Shown here piece by piece: positions 22,451-29,176 of a DNA stretch of 31,582 nt (position 1 is the stretch's first letter; each line of letters starts with the position of its first letter). Below the pieces are notes generated by a model. That model was not told where the DNA came from, did not search any database, and saw nothing but the letters and a program-made list of their open reading frames with translations. The position numbers were made by a program, and so were the translations under genes. The stretch is from a virus. The DNA is taken from the IMG/VR virus record IMGVR_UViG_3300018428_001881, positions 1 through 31,582 of that record. One strand, 5' to 3'.

Positions 22451-23485
22451 ATGACTAACTTTGTAAAAATTAAACATGGTACTTACAGAAAGAATACTGT
22501 TGAAAATACTGTATTTCCTATTGTAAAGCCACTTAACATTGGTAAGAAAGGTGCTTTTATTACTGTAGACGGTACTGAAGTACTTGGCGACCAGTTCAGT
22601 AAAATCCGAGTGCTTATTGAAGATCCTACTAGTGACCTTGAATATGTAACTCCGGCGGTATATGCCGAACAACCTAAAATCGACAACACTCCTGCAGAGC
22701 AGAAGGAAGAGTCCGATGAGCAAGCCATTGAACGTATTCGTGAAAGGTTTGATATTTTGGACAGAATGACTCATGCTGTAGCAGAAGGTACTGTAAGAGG
22801 TATGATTGTTTCAGGCCCTCCAGGTGTTGGTAAGTCATTTGGTGTTGAATCTGTTCTTGAAGATTACGACATGTTAACCGAAGTTGCTGGTAAGCCACAA
22901 AGGACTGAAGTTGTAAAAGGTTCTGTTACACCAATTGGTTTGTTCCAGACACTTTACAATAACTCCGATAAAGGTAACATCTTAGTATTTGATGACTGTG
23001 ACTCGGTGTTGTTTGATGAGGTATGTTTGAACATGCTGAAGGCTACACTCGACTCTGGTAAGAAACGATACATTACTTGGAAGTCAGAGTCCAATGCACT
23101 TCGTAGAGAAGGTATACCTGATAGGTTTGAGTTCAAAGGTGGTTGTATTTTTATTACCAACGTTGACTTTGAAAACGTTCGTTCTAAAAAGATTAAAGAC
23201 CACCTAGCGGCTCTTATGTCAAGGTGTCACTACTTGGATCTAACAATGAACAGTGCTCGTGATAAATTCCTAAGAATTAAGCAAATTGTTCGTGATGGTA
23301 TGCTTGACGAATACGAGTTTGGTAAAGATGGTGATACTGAGATCATTGACTTCATGATTGAGAACACAGACAGGTTGAGAGAAATCAGTTTGCGTATGGT
23401 TCTTAAGATTGCAGACCTTAGAAAAATGGACTCAGATAACTGGAAGTCATTAGCCAAAACTACTTGTATGAAAGGAGTCATCTAA
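22451..23485 (+). CDS. AAA+ ATPase, 344 aa
   Basis: Walker A is SGPPGVGKSF (121-130); Walker B ILVFDDCDSVLFDE (177-190); a sensor-1-like IFITNVDFEN follows near 235, and RCHYLDLTM with a helical lid domain completes the module. The N-terminal 100 residues are a separate beta-rich region plus a helix (EQAIERIRERFDILDRMTHA). It is not the gp44 clamp loader (no SRC motif or zinc) nor the CobS type. AAA+ proteins of this kind recur in marine T4-like phages with unknown task; helicase loading, remodelling or unfolding are possible. Single-gene transcription unit: own promoter and terminator. A structured 3' region follows its stop. Confidence 0.85.
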   Translation: MTNFVKIKHGTYRKNTVENTVFPIVKPLNIGKKGAFITVDGTEVLGDQFSKIRVLIEDPTSDLEYVTPAVYAEQPKIDNTPAEQKEESDEQAIERIRERFDILDRMTHAVAEGTVRGMIVSGPPGVGKSFGVESVLEDYDMLTEVAGKPQRTEVVKGSVTPIGLFQTLYNNSDKGNILVFDDCDSVLFDEVCLNMLKATLDSGKKRYITWKSESNALRREGIPDRFEFKGGCIFITNVDFENVRSKKIKDHLAALMSRCHYLDLTMNSARDKFLRIKQIVRDGMLDEYEFGKDGDTEIIDFMIENTDRLREISLRMVLKIADLRKMDSDNWKSLAKTTCMKGVI

Positions 23486-23551: not shown

Positions 23552-23589
23552 GAAGCCCGGGCTCCCCGGGCTTCACTTTATTTAATTTT
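23552..23589 (+). terminator. Strong GC-rich terminator before the receptor gene
   Basis: GAAGCCCGGG (23552-23561) pairs with CCCGGGCTTC (23565-23574) around CTC, followed by ACTTTATTTAATTTT. The stem is perfect; the T tract is interrupted. It insulates the receptor gene from the AAA+ gene. Confidence 0.85.
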
Positions 23590-23594
23590 AATAC

Positions 23595-23622
23595 TTGACT
23601 TTTCCATATTTCCGTGTATAAT
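23595..23622 (+). promoter_or_regulatory. Sigma70-type promoter of the TonB-dependent receptor gene
   Basis: TTGACT (23595-23600), 16 bp, TATAAT (23617-23622). Shine-Dalgarno GGAG (23642-23645) precedes ATG 23651. No late box is present, so expression should begin while the host polymerase is unmodified. Confidence 0.88.
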
Positions 23623-23650
23623 TACTATTGTTAATTAACATGGAGAAAAC

Positions 23651-25396
23651 ATGAACGAATTCGATAAGAATTTCCACATCAACTTTTCACCACTTTACTT
23701 TGCATTTGCAGTTATGATGTTTATGCTTTGGTCAAGTGAAGTACAAGGAAGTGATATAGAGGAAGTTGTTGTTACTGCTCAACAAGTAGAAACTAAAAAA
23801 GCAGATCCAATAAGTTCCAGTAGAGTTATATCTGCAATAGTAAGCGATTTTACTTATAGCCCAGGAGGCTATGGTGGCTTTGTTGGATATAACGAGCGTG
23901 GTGCTCAAACTATACACACATCAGTTATAGTAAACGGTATACCTGCTAATGACCCGGGTAGTGGCTGGTATGACTTTGGACATGATTTTGCTAGTGGGCA
24001 AACAGTAAAAGTTGTTAGCGGTGCTAACGGTGTGCTGTACGGCTCAGGTAGTATTGCTGGTACTGTATTAATACAAGACACAATCGACACAGGTGCATTG
24101 CTGAGATTAGAAGATGGCAAAGAAATAAATTATATTAGGTTAGCACCAATTGAACAATTTGAATTATCTTATGTTGCAGACGACATGGACAGTGTGCGTA
24201 ATGACAATGACGAAGAAGATGAATACACGAATACTACTGCAAGGTTTAATGTTGACGCAGGAGATTTTGTATTAGTTGGAAAGTTCACTGATTATGAATA
24301 TGATTACGATAATTGTTATGCATTTGATTTTAGTACATCAAATGACTGTGTACAAGATGGCGAACGTTATAGTGTTAGTATTAGAAATGATTATATTACC
24401 CTAGGCAGAAATTATTCTAATAGTGAATATGCAACTAATGAATCAATTACTTACACTAATGAAAGTTATAGAGACTTTCTAAGGATTGGTAATTCTCAGG
24501 AGTTAAGTAAATTTGCAGATATAACTTATGGTATTGATGTAGAAAAACTGGCATATAACACAGATTTCTTTACAAGCGAAACTGAATCTACAGTTGAAAA
24601 ATATACAGATGATAATTATGGTGCATATATTTCAGCAAATATAGATTTGATTTTGTCATACAACTTTGGTATTAGAGTTGGTAACGATGACCAAAATGCA
24701 TTAAGACTAGGTATTGAAAAAGGACCGTGGTACTTTAATGTTGGAAATAGTTTTAGAAAACCCAACTTATATGAAAAGTTTGGTGACGGTTATGTAAATG
24801 CAAGTCCTGACTTAGACTCCGAAGAGGGAGTAGGTTATGAATTAGGCTTTGGAGCATTAAGCATTTACCATTACGAGTTTGAACAAACTATACTGTATCA
24901 ACCTGCATTTGCAACTACAATAATAATTGAACCTGCTAGTATAGATCCTGAAACGGGTTTAGAAATTCCTGCTGTTACAGAAGAAATTTGGACTGACCCA
25001 ACATATTATAATGGCGGTGAATACGATACTACTGGTGTTAGGTTTGCTAACACATTAGGTCCAATCAGTTGGTCATTTAAATATACTGACACAGAGCAAC
25101 CAAGAGTACCAAAGTATTCTGCAAGTATAGATTATATGCAAGTTGTCAGAGATGTAAATCTAAGAATTAAATATGCTGTAAATTTAGATAGAGTTCCTAG
25201 TGAGTTTGATGTTCTTCCAGAAGGACAAAACTTTCTAGATGATTTACACAAAGTAAATTTTTATGCTACAAAGAAACTAGAAAATTTTGTGATTAGTTTT
25301 AAAATAGAAAATCTGTTAGATGAAGAATATGAGGTTGTTCCTTTTTATCCTAATCAAGGCAGAGAGTATTACTTGACACTAGCATACAATTGGTAA
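23651..25396 (+). CDS. Phage-encoded TonB-dependent outer-membrane receptor
   Basis: 581 aa, about the size of BtuB. Residues 1-33 are a signal peptide (hydrophobic FSPLYFAFAVMMFMLWSS, cleavage likely after VQG). A TonB box IEEVVVTAQ (36-44) begins the mature protein. A short plug domain (about 48-145) has the family phrases ERGAQTIHTSVIVNGIPAND (82-101) and VKVVSGANGVLYGSGSIAG (119-137). The barrel contains the diagnostic SFRKPNLYEKFGDG (367-380) followed by SPDLDSEEGVGYELGFG, and ends in NLLDEEYEV...GREYYLTLAYNW with the terminal aromatic used for outer-membrane assembly. C222 and C233 may form a loop disulfide; an acidic loop (about 177-191) is notable. Such proteins import scarce ligands (iron chelates, cobalamin, sugars) using TonB energy, and are often phage receptors. 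Base composition matches its neighbours. Ligand unknown. Confidence 0.93.
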   Translation: MNEFDKNFHINFSPLYFAFAVMMFMLWSSEVQGSDIEEVVVTAQQVETKKADPISSSRVISAIVSDFTYSPGGYGGFVGYNERGAQTIHTSVIVNGIPANDPGSGWYDFGHDFASGQTVKVVSGANGVLYGSGSIAGTVLIQDTIDTGALLRLEDGKEINYIRLAPIEQFELSYVADDMDSVRNDNDEEDEYTNTTARFNVDAGDFVLVGKFTDYEYDYDNCYAFDFSTSNDCVQDGERYSVSIRNDYITLGRNYSNSEYATNESITYTNESYRDFLRIGNSQELSKFADITYGIDVEKLAYNTDFFTSETESTVEKYTDDNYGAYISANIDLILSYNFGIRVGNDDQNALRLGIEKGPWYFNVGNSFRKPNLYEKFGDGYVNASPDLDSEEGVGYELGFGALSIYHYEFEQTILYQPAFATTIIIEPASIDPETGLEIPAVTEEIWTDPTYYNGGEYDTTGVRFANTLGPISWSFKYTDTEQPRVPKYSASIDYMQVVRDVNLRIKYAVNLDRVPSEFDVLPEGQNFLDDLHKVNFYATKKLENFVISFKIENLLDEEYEVVPFYPNQGREYYLTLAYNW

Positions 25397-25402
25397 TATA
25401 AT
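25373..25402 (+). promoter_or_regulatory. Sigma70-type promoter of the uvsW operon
   Basis: TTGACA (25373-25378) lies in the last codons of the receptor gene; 18 bp later is TATAAT (25397-25402), directly after the receptor stop codon. The short leader holds AAAGG before ATG 25414. Confidence 0.75.
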
Positions 25403-25413
25403 AAAGGTTAATT

Positions 25414-26871
25414 ATGCCTAAATGTGTTTTAGAAATTCGTGATGAAGTAAACGTTAAGTTCGTTGGGCTTGATGTAAAAACCAGACGAGCAATTTCCGAT
25501 GCCGCAAAATATTTTTTACCTTATGCATACCATATGCCTGCTTACAAACTAGGCAGATGGGACGGATGTGTAAGGTTCTGTGATATAGGCGGCAGAACAT
25601 ATTTAAATTTATTAGATAGACTTATTCCTATAGTTCAAAAAGCAGGATATGATATTGAAGTGCAAGATAACAGAAATGTATGGGACTTAAACTTTGAAGA
25701 AATAGACCAACTTAGATATGAAAATGTAAGTTGGCCAAAAGGTCATCCTGCAGAAGGTGAACCTATTATACTTAGAGACTATCAAGTAGAAGTAATTAAT
25801 GAGTTTTTAAAGAATCCACAGAGTTTACAGGAAGTGGCTACAGGCGCCGGTAAGACGCTCATAACAGCCGCCTTAAGCGATTGTTGTGAGCAGTATGGTA
25901 GAACTATAGTAATTGTTCCTAACAAAGACTTGGTTGTACAAACAGAACGTGATTATAAAAACTTAGGACTTGATGTTGGTGTGTTGTTTGGAGATAGAAA
26001 AGAATATGACAAAACACACACCATATGTACTTGGCAAAGTCTAAGCATAATGGAAAAGAAAAGTAAAAAGTTTGAAGCAGACTTTCCTATAGACCAGTTT
26101 TTAGCAGGAGTTGTTTGCATCATGGTAGACGAAGTACACAAAGCAAAAGCAGATGTACTTAGAAATTTACTAGGAGGTGCTTTTGCAAATGTTCCTATAA
26201 GATGGGGACTTAAAGGAACAATACCTAAAGATGAACATGAAGCAGTTGGGTGTATTTGCTCAATAGGACCTGTAACAGGAAATCTAAGCAGTAAAGAATT
26301 GCAAGACAAAGGTGTATTAGCCAACTTAGATATAAACGTGTTTCAGTTACAAGATGGTGTGCTAGGATTTAATAACTATGCACAAGAATTAAAGTGGCTG
26401 GTAACAGACAAAGATAGAGTACAACATATTAGTGATATTATTACTGGACTGAGTGGTTCAGGAAATACATTAGTATTGATTGATAGATTAGCAACAGGAG
26501 AACTACTAAATGAAATAAATCCAGAGTGGGTGTTTATAAGTGGTGACATGAAAGTTGCTGACAGACAAAAAGAATATAGAGAAGTAAGCGAAATGGATAA
26601 TAAAGTGATTGTGGCAACATATGGTGTAGCCGCAGTTGGTATTAATATTCCACGTATATTTAACTTAGTTCTTTTAGAGCCAGGAAAAAGTTTTGTGAGA
26701 GTAATACAAAGTATTGGACGTGGCATTAGAAAAGCAGAAGATAAAGATTATTTAAATGTAGTCGATATAACAAGCAATTTAAAATATAGCAAAAGACATT
26801 TGACTAAAAGGAAGGCATTCTATAAAGAGCAAGGATTTCCGTTTCAAGTGACTAAAGTGGAGTATAAATGA
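25414..26871 (+). CDS. uvsW: UvsW superfamily 2 helicase
   Basis: 485 aa (T4 UvsW is about 500). The N-terminal domain (1-115) resembles the UvsW DNA-binding extension. Helicase motifs follow: LRDYQVEVINEFL (Q-like, 120-132), Walker A VATGAGKT (141-148), IVIVPNKDLVVQTERD (Ia), DEVH box VDEVHKAKA (238-246), LKGTIPK (motif III region), and motif VI QSIGRGIRKAED. T4 UvsW unwinds R-loops and branched DNA, switching replication from origin- to recombination-dependent mode. It leads a run of overlapping genes: the next ATG overlaps its stop (ATGA). Confidence 0.95.
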   Translation: MPKCVLEIRDEVNVKFVGLDVKTRRAISDAAKYFLPYAYHMPAYKLGRWDGCVRFCDIGGRTYLNLLDRLIPIVQKAGYDIEVQDNRNVWDLNFEEIDQLRYENVSWPKGHPAEGEPIILRDYQVEVINEFLKNPQSLQEVATGAGKTLITAALSDCCEQYGRTIVIVPNKDLVVQTERDYKNLGLDVGVLFGDRKEYDKTHTICTWQSLSIMEKKSKKFEADFPIDQFLAGVVCIMVDEVHKAKADVLRNLLGGAFANVPIRWGLKGTIPKDEHEAVGCICSIGPVTGNLSSKELQDKGVLANLDINVFQLQDGVLGFNNYAQELKWLVTDKDRVQHISDIITGLSGSGNTLVLIDRLATGELLNEINPEWVFISGDMKVADRQKEYREVSEMDNKVIVATYGVAAVGINIPRIFNLVLLEPGKSFVRVIQSIGRGIRKAEDKDYLNVVDITSNLKYSKRHLTKRKAFYKEQGFPFQVTKVEYK

Positions 26872-27379: not shown

Positions 27380-28117
27380 ATGAGTTTAGATAAAGATATT
27401 GAAAAAATGACCGACAAATTAAAAGGCACAAAAAGACGTTATAGAATTGAGCCTGGTAATTATGGCGGTGAAATGGTAGTTGGCGAAGTTTCAGAAGAAT
27501 TTGTCAATTACTGGATAGACAGAGACCATTATGATTTAATGGAACAGGTGTTGAACACTGGAGAAGGTGCTGATGAAGATGAAAACCCAGATGATAATTC
27601 TCCAGAAGTAAAAGAAGATTTTACATACTGGCATGATTGTGATGAGTACGAACACTTGAATGGTGCTTTTTCAGATGGTACTTGGACAGTATACGAAGTT
27701 CCAGCAGACGGTTCAGATGATTGGGACTGGGAAAAAGAAATTTTCGAAGGAGAAGCAAATCATATATATGGCAGAGAATGTTACTTTGATAATAGCACAC
27801 CAGATGATATGGAAGACTATGTTCCTGTGTTGTCTTTTATGAGTGTGGAAAAAGGTAATTTTGGTGTTTGCTTTTTAGATTTAGAAGGCGAAGAGTTTGA
27901 CCCTGAAAAATTACGTTTTGGATCTTGTGAAAGTAATTTAGCAGATTTAGTTGAAACTGTATATTACGGTAAAGAAGAATTAGAACTCAATTACGACTAT
28001 GCAGATACAACTGGTAAAAGTTATGAAGTACAAGTTGGATATATGAATACGAAATGGAGAGATGATCCGGATCAGTATACTGTAGAATATTTAGAGGAAG
28101 AAGGATATTTTGATTAA
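27380..28117 (+). CDS. Very acidic unknown protein, 245 aa
   Basis: Shine-Dalgarno AGGAGG-like (TAGGAGGAAT, 27370-27379) precedes ATG 27380. Asp, Glu, Tyr and Trp dominate, with acidic clusters GEGADEDENPDDNSPE (about 56-71) and DGSDDWDWEKEIFEGE (about 110-125), and a C-terminal YTVEYLEEEGYFD. No family recognised. The charge profile is that of a DNA mimic or a flexible adaptor, but this is only composition. The stop overlaps the next start (TAATG). Confidence 0.8.
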   Translation: MSLDKDIEKMTDKLKGTKRRYRIEPGNYGGEMVVGEVSEEFVNYWIDRDHYDLMEQVLNTGEGADEDENPDDNSPEVKEDFTYWHDCDEYEHLNGAFSDGTWTVYEVPADGSDDWDWEKEIFEGEANHIYGRECYFDNSTPDDMEDYVPVLSFMSVEKGNFGVCFLDLEGEEFDPEKLRFGSCESNLADLVETVYYGKEELELNYDYADTTGKSYEVQVGYMNTKWRDDPDQYTVEYLEEEGYFD

Positions 28118-28644
28118 TGGATTTAAAAAAGATAATTCGGAACGTACCTGATTTTCCAGTTAAAGGTATACAGTTTAAAGACATAAGCAGTATATTAGAA
28201 AATCCAGATGCATTTAAATACTCTATTGATAAAATTACTGCATACTGTAAGAAATCGGGTATAACACACATTGTGGCTCCAGATGCCAGAGGGTTTATAT
28301 GGGGTGCTCCTGTTTCTTATAAATTAAATATTCCTTTTATAATGGCTAGAAAAGCAGGAAAACTTCCCCCACCTGTCAGTAGTTACTCATACAAATTAGA
28401 GTATGGTGAAGCAACATTAGAAATACCAGAGTCAGTTAATTTAAAAGACGGCTCAAAGGTATGCATTATTGATGATGTGTCTGCTACAGGCGGCACAGCA
28501 AATGCTATGGTAGGTTTATTACAGAAAGCAGGTGCAGATGAAATATATTATGCTTGTGTTATGGATTTAAAATTTTTACAAGGAACTAAAAAACTACTTG
28601 ACTATTGTGGAGTAGAAAGTTATAGTGTAGTAGATTATGAGTAA
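28117..28644 (+). CDS. apt: Adenine phosphoribosyltransferase
   Basis: 175 aa, normal APRT length. The N-terminal IIRNVPDFPVKGIQFKDISS (6-25) is the family hood motif, APDARGFIWGAPVSYKL (54-70) the adenine-site loop, RKAGKLPPPVSSYSYKLEYG (78-97) the flexible loop, and VCIIDDVSATGGTANAM (115-131) the PRPP-binding motif. It makes AMP from adenine and PRPP. The next gene encodes an MTA/SAH nucleosidase, whose product is adenine, so the two form a complete salvage step. Translationally coupled on both sides (TAATG; ATG 28637 inside its end). Confidence 0.95.
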   Translation: MDLKKIIRNVPDFPVKGIQFKDISSILENPDAFKYSIDKITAYCKKSGITHIVAPDARGFIWGAPVSYKLNIPFIMARKAGKLPPPVSSYSYKLEYGEATLEIPESVNLKDGSKVCIIDDVSATGGTANAMVGLLQKAGADEIYYACVMDLKFLQGTKKLLDYCGVESYSVVDYE

Positions 28645-29176
28645 TTTAATTTTTATTGCATTGCAATCAGAAGCACCTACTATGGAAAAATGGGATAATG
28701 TACATTTTACAGGCGTAGGTAAAGTAAATGCCGCAATGGTGGCGTCTGCAATGATACAAGAGTTTAGACCTAAAACAGTCTGGAATTTTGGAACTGCAGG
28801 TGGTATAACTGTACAAGGTGGATTACACGAAGTTACAAAATTTGTTCAACGTGATATGAAATGCTGTGAGTTTGGTTTTGAATTAGGTCAAACACCTTTC
28901 GAACCAAGCAGTAAAATTATAGATTTTGGAAAAGGATTGACATGTAGTACAGGCGATAATTTTGTTAGTGATCCAAATTTAGAAATACCTGCAGATGTTG
29001 TAGACATGGAGGCGTATGCTATTGCAAAAGTTTGCCAATACCACAATGTAAATTTTAGATGTTTTAAATATATAAGTGATAGTGCAGATGAAAATGCAAC
29101 TAAGGAATGGCATGAAACTGTAGCAGACGGTGAACAGTTTTACATTAATACATATTTGGAAACTGTAAATGGCTAA
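28637..29176 (+). CDS. MTA/SAH nucleosidase-like phosphorylase-fold enzyme
   Basis: 179 aa, shorter than cellular enzymes (about 230). The fold's landmarks are present: IALQSEAP with E12 (general acid region), FTGVGKVNAAMVAS (24-37), VWNFGTAGGI (48-57), CSTGDNFVSD (103-112), VVDMEAYAIAKVC (121-133) whose M123-E124 pair contacts ribose, and YISDSADENA with D148 (catalytic Asp position). By these motifs it should hydrolyse 5'-methylthioadenosine and/or S-adenosylhomocysteine to adenine. Its overlap with the APRT gene supports adenine recycling to AMP. Substrate preference versus purine nucleoside phosphorylase cannot be fixed from sequence. The next start overlaps its stop. Confidence 0.87.
   Translation: MSNLIFIALQSEAPTMEKWDNVHFTGVGKVNAAMVASAMIQEFRPKTVWNFGTAGGITVQGGLHEVTKFVQRDMKCCEFGFELGQTPFEPSSKIIDFGKGLTCSTGDNFVSDPNLEIPADVVDMEAYAIAKVCQYHNVNFRCFKYISDSADENATKEWHETVADGEQFYINTYLETVNG

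Follow-up and report, generated by a model that had tools for sequence, protein, structure and literature searches.

The window, a 31.6-kb (31,582-nucleotide) metagenomic virus fragment from IMG/VR, carries a gene for a complete TonB-dependent receptor (TBDR) with a plug, a TonB box and a full barrel. The closest known kind of this receptor is BtuB, and the gene is nearly core in the jumbo-phage lineage to which the window belongs. The explanation we favor, with a probability of about one half, is that the phage makes a BtuB-type importer that would be synthesized early, driven by the TonB of the host, and take up cobalamin or a closely related corrinoid. As the first-pass annotation had stated, the gene lies between phage genes: that of an AAA+ ATPase upstream (phrog_1250; positions 22451-23485) and that of the UvsW helicase downstream (phrog_16; 25414-26871). 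For the AAA+ neighbor, an assignment as a CobS-like cobalamin gene was ruled out; it is instead similar to T4 nrdC.10. The receptor gene with its parts and signals, its two neighbors and the nucleosidase gene described below are on the plus strand.

Structure of the receptor and its kinship with BtuB

Profile searches, NCBIfam, an AlphaFold2 (AF2) model and a fold match identify the 581-residue product of positions 23651-25396 as a BtuB-like TonB-dependent outer-membrane receptor. The reading frame is uninterrupted from ATG to stop. The Pfam Plug domain (PF07715) was found at residues 40-138 with 30.9 bits, above the cut-off of 23.9, which was also passed by six of six relatives tested. The Pfam search gave no match to the barrel model TonB_dep_Rec (PF00593) at E ≤ 1, so that of the two domains read from the sequence at the outset only the plug was recovered by profile, and the barrel is assigned by its fold because PF00593 was not detected. 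The AF2 model, calculated from a 29-row alignment (pLDDT 78.6, pTM 0.74), starts with a hydrophobic helix at the N-terminus, followed by a plug and a large barrel of approximately 22-23 strands, the architecture originally proposed. According to the AF2 secondary structure and the match with the BtuB fold, the beta-barrel comprises residues 148-581 (24092-25393); the C-terminal residue is tryptophan. The TonB box IEEVVV occupies residues 36-41 (23756-23773), of which E37 and E38 are invariant in the 29-sequence alignment. Because the Plug score exceeds the cut-off, a TonB box is present and the model spans residues 7-594 of BtuB, the receptor is complete and not a fragment, as had been claimed.

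In the fold search, B12 transporters occupied all of the first 15 rows out of 996 aligned PDB chains. E. coli BtuB (residues 7-594) matched the model with a Z score of 33.5 and 2.4 Å over 466 residues, followed by B. thetaiotaomicron BtuB with Z scores of 29.5-31.1; PirA, ZnuD and ChuA ranked lower. With regard to size, E. coli BtuB is among the smaller TBDRs, and the longer BtuB of B. thetaiotaomicron (approximately 625 residues) still outranked ZnuD and ChuA, which are of similar length. A profile of the phage receptor family run against the PDB sequences matched only BtuB over nearly the full length (E 9e-9). The TonB-B12 model TIGR01779 matched three of the four members tested, the window receptor (3e-7), L058 (1e-11) and L069 (4e-13), for each of which it was the best or near-best NCBIfam match, and L025 gave just a weak match to a haemoglobin/transferrin-type model. 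The TIGR01779 scores (29.3 bits for the window, up to 48.6 for L069) fell far short of the equivalog cut-off of 599.7, and the protein is therefore termed BtuB-like, not BtuB. A fold common to the whole length relates it to BtuB of E. coli, BtuB1 and BtuB3 of B. thetaiotaomicron and the riboswitch-linked proteobacterial homologues, and it shares with BtuB the TonB box, the plug, the barrel, an acidic loop L2 and the Tyr-Asp residues of loop L3. It differs from BtuB in its identity of only approximately 18%, its sub-equivalog score and a plug shortened by approximately 20 residues. Unlike the BtuB-type homologues, the gene is encoded by a phage, specifies a phage leader and is preceded by a plain sigma70 promoter; no riboswitch was found on the phage receptor gene.

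Cellular relatives of the receptor are distant. A pattern scan of one genome per species revealed a single weak relative, and profile searches of approximately 700 proteobacterial genomes yielded distant matches (best E 3e-17); in neither was a close cellular copy found. A Cobalamin or AdoCbl-II riboswitch occurs at the locus of 26 of the 30 nearest cellular relatives checked, compared with 1 of 19 other TBDRs of the same genomes (Fisher p 1e-8), a control set from which one locus repeating a test locus was excluded. In a 32-row tree, the non-B12 TBDRs split from the B12 kin and the phage proteins (SH-aLRT 99), and the phage proteins, on a long branch, join the AdoCbl-II-linked proteins (SH-aLRT 97). 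A larger tree gave SH-aLRT values of 83-92 for the B12-side grouping and 83 for phage plus AdoCbl-II-linked proteins. An AU test of the 32-row tree did not reject a grouping of the phage with the non-B12 TBDRs (p 0.186). The tree partners of the phage clade come from AT-rich genomes of 1.1-1.3 Mb with an AdoCbl-II-linked receptor, the loci of which have 27-28% GC; in five of these genomes there is one TBDR each.

The plug (residues 36-143, positions 23756-24079) is shorter than usual, as suspected earlier. From the TonB box to the plug end there are 108 residues in 7 of 7 phage copies and 126-129 in 13 cellular BtuB-like proteins. The phage copies lack a strand-helix ahead of the conserved 'LPGV' region, and the longer form occurs in no phage copy of the 29-sequence alignment. 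The loss of approximately 20 residues could impair gating. The loops were assigned from the AF2 model and barrel parity. Among the regions that vary least are the apical plug and the extracellular loops L2, L3, L6 and L9; L5 (24572-24586), into which relatives have insertions of approximately 50-75 residues, and L8 (24881-24985), which varies in length and sequence, are hypervariable. Loop L2 (residues 180-192, 24188-24226) contains the acidic motif DSVRNDNDEEDEY, with R183, D185, N186, E188, D190 and Y192 invariant, at the place of BtuB D193 and D195, which we take to be members of the five-aspartate calcium cage. Loop L3 (residues 219-233, 24305-24349) has the pattern YDNC...NDC with two invariant cysteines at the place of BtuB Y229/D230. 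The invariant residues D190, Y219 and D220 align with D195, Y229 and D230 of BtuB; the counterpart of D179 is a serine, and the calcium cage is therefore only partly conserved. In BtuB, Y229 and D230 are among the L3 residues that contact cobalamin, and the calcium-binding cage of five aspartates is located near the pocket (PMC7360065). The L3 pattern with both cysteines was also seen in L224, a cellular, riboswitch-linked BtuB-like protein. Ratios of dN/dS of 0.07-0.36 among close receptor pairs show purifying selection on the receptor gene.

Early expression, ligand and alternatives

An intrinsic terminator with a 10-bp stem, 8 GC pairs and a T-rich tail (23552-23574) closes the upstream AAA+ unit. 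The receptor gene follows with its own sigma70-type promoter TTGACT-16-TATAAT (23595-23622) and, read from the sequence, a GGAG ribosome-binding site (23642-23645), similar to the GGAG/AGGA of relatives, which bears out its description as a single-gene unit. A perfect sigma70 promoter for uvsW, TTGACA-18-TATAAT (25373-25402), overlaps the 3' end of the receptor gene. All 17 representative close-clade copies at the AAA+/uvsW site have a near-perfect promoter 24-52 nt before the start; the sigma70-type promoter is absent from the copies at the nucleosidase site, from the two that lie ahead of the AAA+ gene and from the distant clade. Such promoters are numerous in the genomes of relatives, with 36 in the 340-kb contig G001 (0.8 expected) and 22 in the 250-kb contig G003 (1.0 expected), and they extend to uvsW in G001 and to a ribonucleotide reductase gene in G003. 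They likely constitute an early-promoter set. Their spacers are mostly 16-17 nt, and most are located directly before genes. Since the promoter of the receptor gene is of this host-type sigma70 class, the gene is presumably expressed early by the host polymerase.

From these features we infer the timing, localization, TonB coupling, ligand and benefit of the receptor as follows. Host RNA polymerase would transcribe the gene early from its own sigma70 promoter, the phage leader would direct export via the host Sec and Bam machinery, and host TonB-ExbBD would power the receptor; in 13 records, all fragments, no phage-encoded TonB was found. The apical plug and loops L2 and L3 would bind cobalamin or a closely related corrinoid, which the receptor would pass to the periplasm for uptake across the inner membrane by the host. 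B12-dependent reactions would in this way be kept supplied through the long infection by a jumbo phage, and the demand for B12 may lie in host enzymes.

The ligand had at first been given as iron, cobalamin or other; the fold, the profile and the riboswitch-linked kin favor cobalamin. The conserved loop residues and two phages with B12-domain radical-SAM proteins would also count for cobalamin. The B12-binding domain exceeds the Pfam cut-off in one of these proteins (G001:C1:111207-113057; L102:11207-13057) and falls below it in the similar protein of G003 (G003:C1:243161-245230; L126:3161-5230). The best NCBIfam match of both is the KedN5-type methylcobalamin-dependent methyltransferase, below cut-off. 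Relatives of the G001 protein occur in 10 viral contigs of IMG/VR only, and because of this small number the gene fails to explain the whole lineage. A need of B12 for a phage class II ribonucleotide reductase was ruled out in the 340-kb relative, which encodes a class Ia NrdA with NrdB. Against cobalamin are to be set the identity of approximately 18%, the scores far under the equivalog cut-off, the partial calcium cage, the shortened plug, the lack of a riboswitch, the outcome of the AU test, the class Ia reductase and the lack of a known universal consumer in the phages.

Several of these points would also be accounted for by an importer that descended from a BtuB-type ancestor and takes up another scarce ligand, such as haem, another metal chelate or a nucleoside-like compound. 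The low identity to BtuB and the partly changed calcium cage would fit such a change of specificity, as would weak matches of the plug to haem-receptor families, the location of the gene directly behind a nucleosidase gene in some phages and the circumstance that no clear B12-consuming enzyme is known in most of these phages. The nearest cellular kin, however, are overwhelmingly cobalamin-regulated, and residues of the B12- and calcium-site loops are among the conserved ones. Another ligand is thus conceivable, but we doubt it.

It is rather unlikely that the protein serves superinfection exclusion or receptor replacement, a role that the first-pass annotation had considered alongside import and the shedding of receptor. 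In such a scenario the phage barrel would compete for TonB or displace BtuB and other TBDRs of the host, which are receptors for other phages or bacteriocins, and import would be incidental. Phages and colicins are known to use TBDRs such as BtuB and FhuA as receptors (PDB entries), the promoter is of an early type, the hypervariable loops L5 and L8 resemble surface diversification, and the shortened plug could change gating. A decoy, however, could do without conservation of the TonB box and of the ligand face, both of which belong to the most conserved parts of the protein; this argues against a pure decoy as far as can be judged from the alignment. Kinship with B12 transporters would also be unnecessary for exclusion.

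The phage metabolic genes described to date act mostly inside the cell. With a near-core, probably early outer-membrane importer of the kind favored here, some phage groups would alter the uptake of the infected cell from its surroundings, and if the ligand is cobalamin, phage infection would be tied to how much of a scarce vitamin is available. In addition, a potential phage receptor that is itself encoded by a phage would sit on the cell surface. The near-universal occurrence of the importer gene in the lineage suggests that these phages may alter host intake.

The leader module

The receptor begins with a phage-specific leader, MNEFDKNFHINFSPLY followed by a hydrophobic stretch (23651-23755), which is common to unrelated proteins and free micropeptides. 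It forms the hydrophobic helix of the model and is a putative signal peptide, yet its n-region is acidic and unusual. Unexpectedly, the profile search matched only the leader part in two other contigs. One instance (L310:6479-7165) is a 228-residue DUF481 protein with the leader, the DUF481 domain of which scored 64 bits against a cut-off of 21. DKNFHINFSPLY plus the hydrophobic span is found not only on the TBDR but, in related phages, also on a DUF481 outer-membrane protein and two small proteins, and as a free peptide. A pattern scan, together with two further loci, gave 72 leader instances, some of which are overlapping copies of one contig; 57 are on TBDRs and 15 elsewhere. The latter comprise DUF481 proteins, proteins of 139 and 159 residues, free peptides of 29-30 residues and one 56-residue ORF; besides L310, contigs with such instances are L361, L330, L318, L338, L373, L379 and L380. 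Several of the free peptides are encoded downstream of nrdA/nrdB, and for the free peptide there was no PHROG and no match among isolate phages. Most receptor copies have the phage-specific leader. Those of L053, L056 and L058 have ordinary-looking signal peptides instead, and the leader is therefore not obligatory.

The lineage may own a reusable module, M-x-x-F-D-K-N-F-H-I-N-F-S-P-L-Y plus the hydrophobic span, which occurs free or fused to captured envelope proteins and which after cleavage would be an active membrane peptide. We propose this tentatively. If it is true, each exported protein with the leader would amount to a remodeled outer membrane plus a phage-made peptide in the inner membrane. 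That the leader is the selected feature, with the DKNFHINFSPLY-plus-hydrophobic peptide being freed by signal peptidase to act in the inner membrane and the receptor being secondary, is very improbable. The occurrence of the same leader on the TBDR, the DUF481 protein, the two small proteins and stand-alone peptides of 29-30 residues speaks for it, but copies such as those of L053, L056 and L058 have retained the receptor in the absence of this leader, and the receptor body itself is under purifying selection. In L311:6722-6907 (G689), the 56-residue ORF contains leader DNA that is 99% identical to the leader of the L025 receptor, without a receptor body; it appears to be a remnant or a recent duplication of the leader.

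Distribution of the receptor gene in jumbo phages

The phage backbone is that of a jumbo phage of the T4 superfamily, and its nearest relative is the Pseudomonas phage PA5oct, to which the terminase TerL (57%) and the tail sheath (45%) are closest. The designation T4-like is therefore apt in the broad sense but does not extend to classical T4. The Arenbergviridae, represented by PA5oct, form the nearest classified backbone, with a similar gene order. PA5oct has no annotated receptor gene in the inspected region from the terminase past UvsX. Synteny between the window and the 340-kb contig L058/G001 extends over nearly all genes. The two are 82% identical in UvsW and 78% in the AAA+ protein but only 42% in the receptor, which therefore evolves faster than its neighbors.

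At least 127 relatives of the receptor are found in IMG/VR, the best 80 of which are 36-73% identical. A search that started from UvsW yielded 79 informative loci, with one uninformative locus set aside, and in 75 of the 79 the receptor gene is immediately upstream of uvsW, so that the gene recurs at the same locus in related contigs. In the other four loci the receptor gene is absent, and the empty junction measures 116 or 513 bp. In L036-L039, the receptor gene is instead located before the AAA+ gene, and in 13 loci it is directly behind a nucleosidase gene; in two 90-kb contigs inspected, this nucleosidase-receptor pair is antisense inside the tail/baseplate gene cluster. In view of the alternative sites and its retention in 75 of 79 loci, the gene behaves like a movable cassette that is rarely missing. 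That the gene became attached to phage sequence through misassembly or cellular contamination, as might be suspected in a 31.6-kb metagenomic fragment, can be dismissed, since many of the 75 contigs with the receptor beside uvsW stem from different metagenome accessions, the remaining four loci are empty sites, the promoter is conserved among relatives and the searches of cellular genomes gave no close copy; a chimera at the receptor is ruled out by these independent contigs and by the separate contig L328, in which the N-terminal 77 residues are identical.

In INPHARED, no record, PA5oct included, matched the window receptor at E 0.01 (tblastn). The protein of a relative gave just four weak matches to isolate phages, two of them in Acinetobacter records with the annotation btuB, the others in Salmonella records. 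SusC-type TBDRs were reported in the marine megaphage Mar_Mega_1 and in LR745206 and read as auxiliary metabolic genes (PMC9723777). Like the window receptor they are full TBDRs in very large marine phage genomes, but they come from two genomes, in contrast to the lineage-wide gene described here. The best viral structural match is BFVD A0A8D9FQQ5, 'TonB-dependent receptor SusC [uncultured marine phage]', a SusC of 805 residues with 12% identity to the window receptor in the structural alignment. In the pelagiphage Skadi, a protein annotated as a TonB-dependent receptor, encoded between tail tube and capsid genes, was interpreted in the original study as pointing to the adsorption receptor (PMC10504331); it has this annotation in common with the window receptor and is set beside it by description only. 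No report of a phage-encoded BtuB was found in the open-access literature. As far as the literature searched shows, a lineage-wide, B12-type phage TBDR with a shortened plug and its own leader module is new.

The window also contains a gene for an MTA/SAH-type nucleosidase (28637-29176). It overlaps an adenine phosphoribosyltransferase gene, the two together occupying 28117-29176. In other phages, a relative of the nucleosidase is encoded immediately ahead of the receptor. In G001, a superoxide dismutase-like protein and two fatty-acid-desaturase-like proteins were recognized by eye (G001:C1:194765-195304 and 176932-178508).
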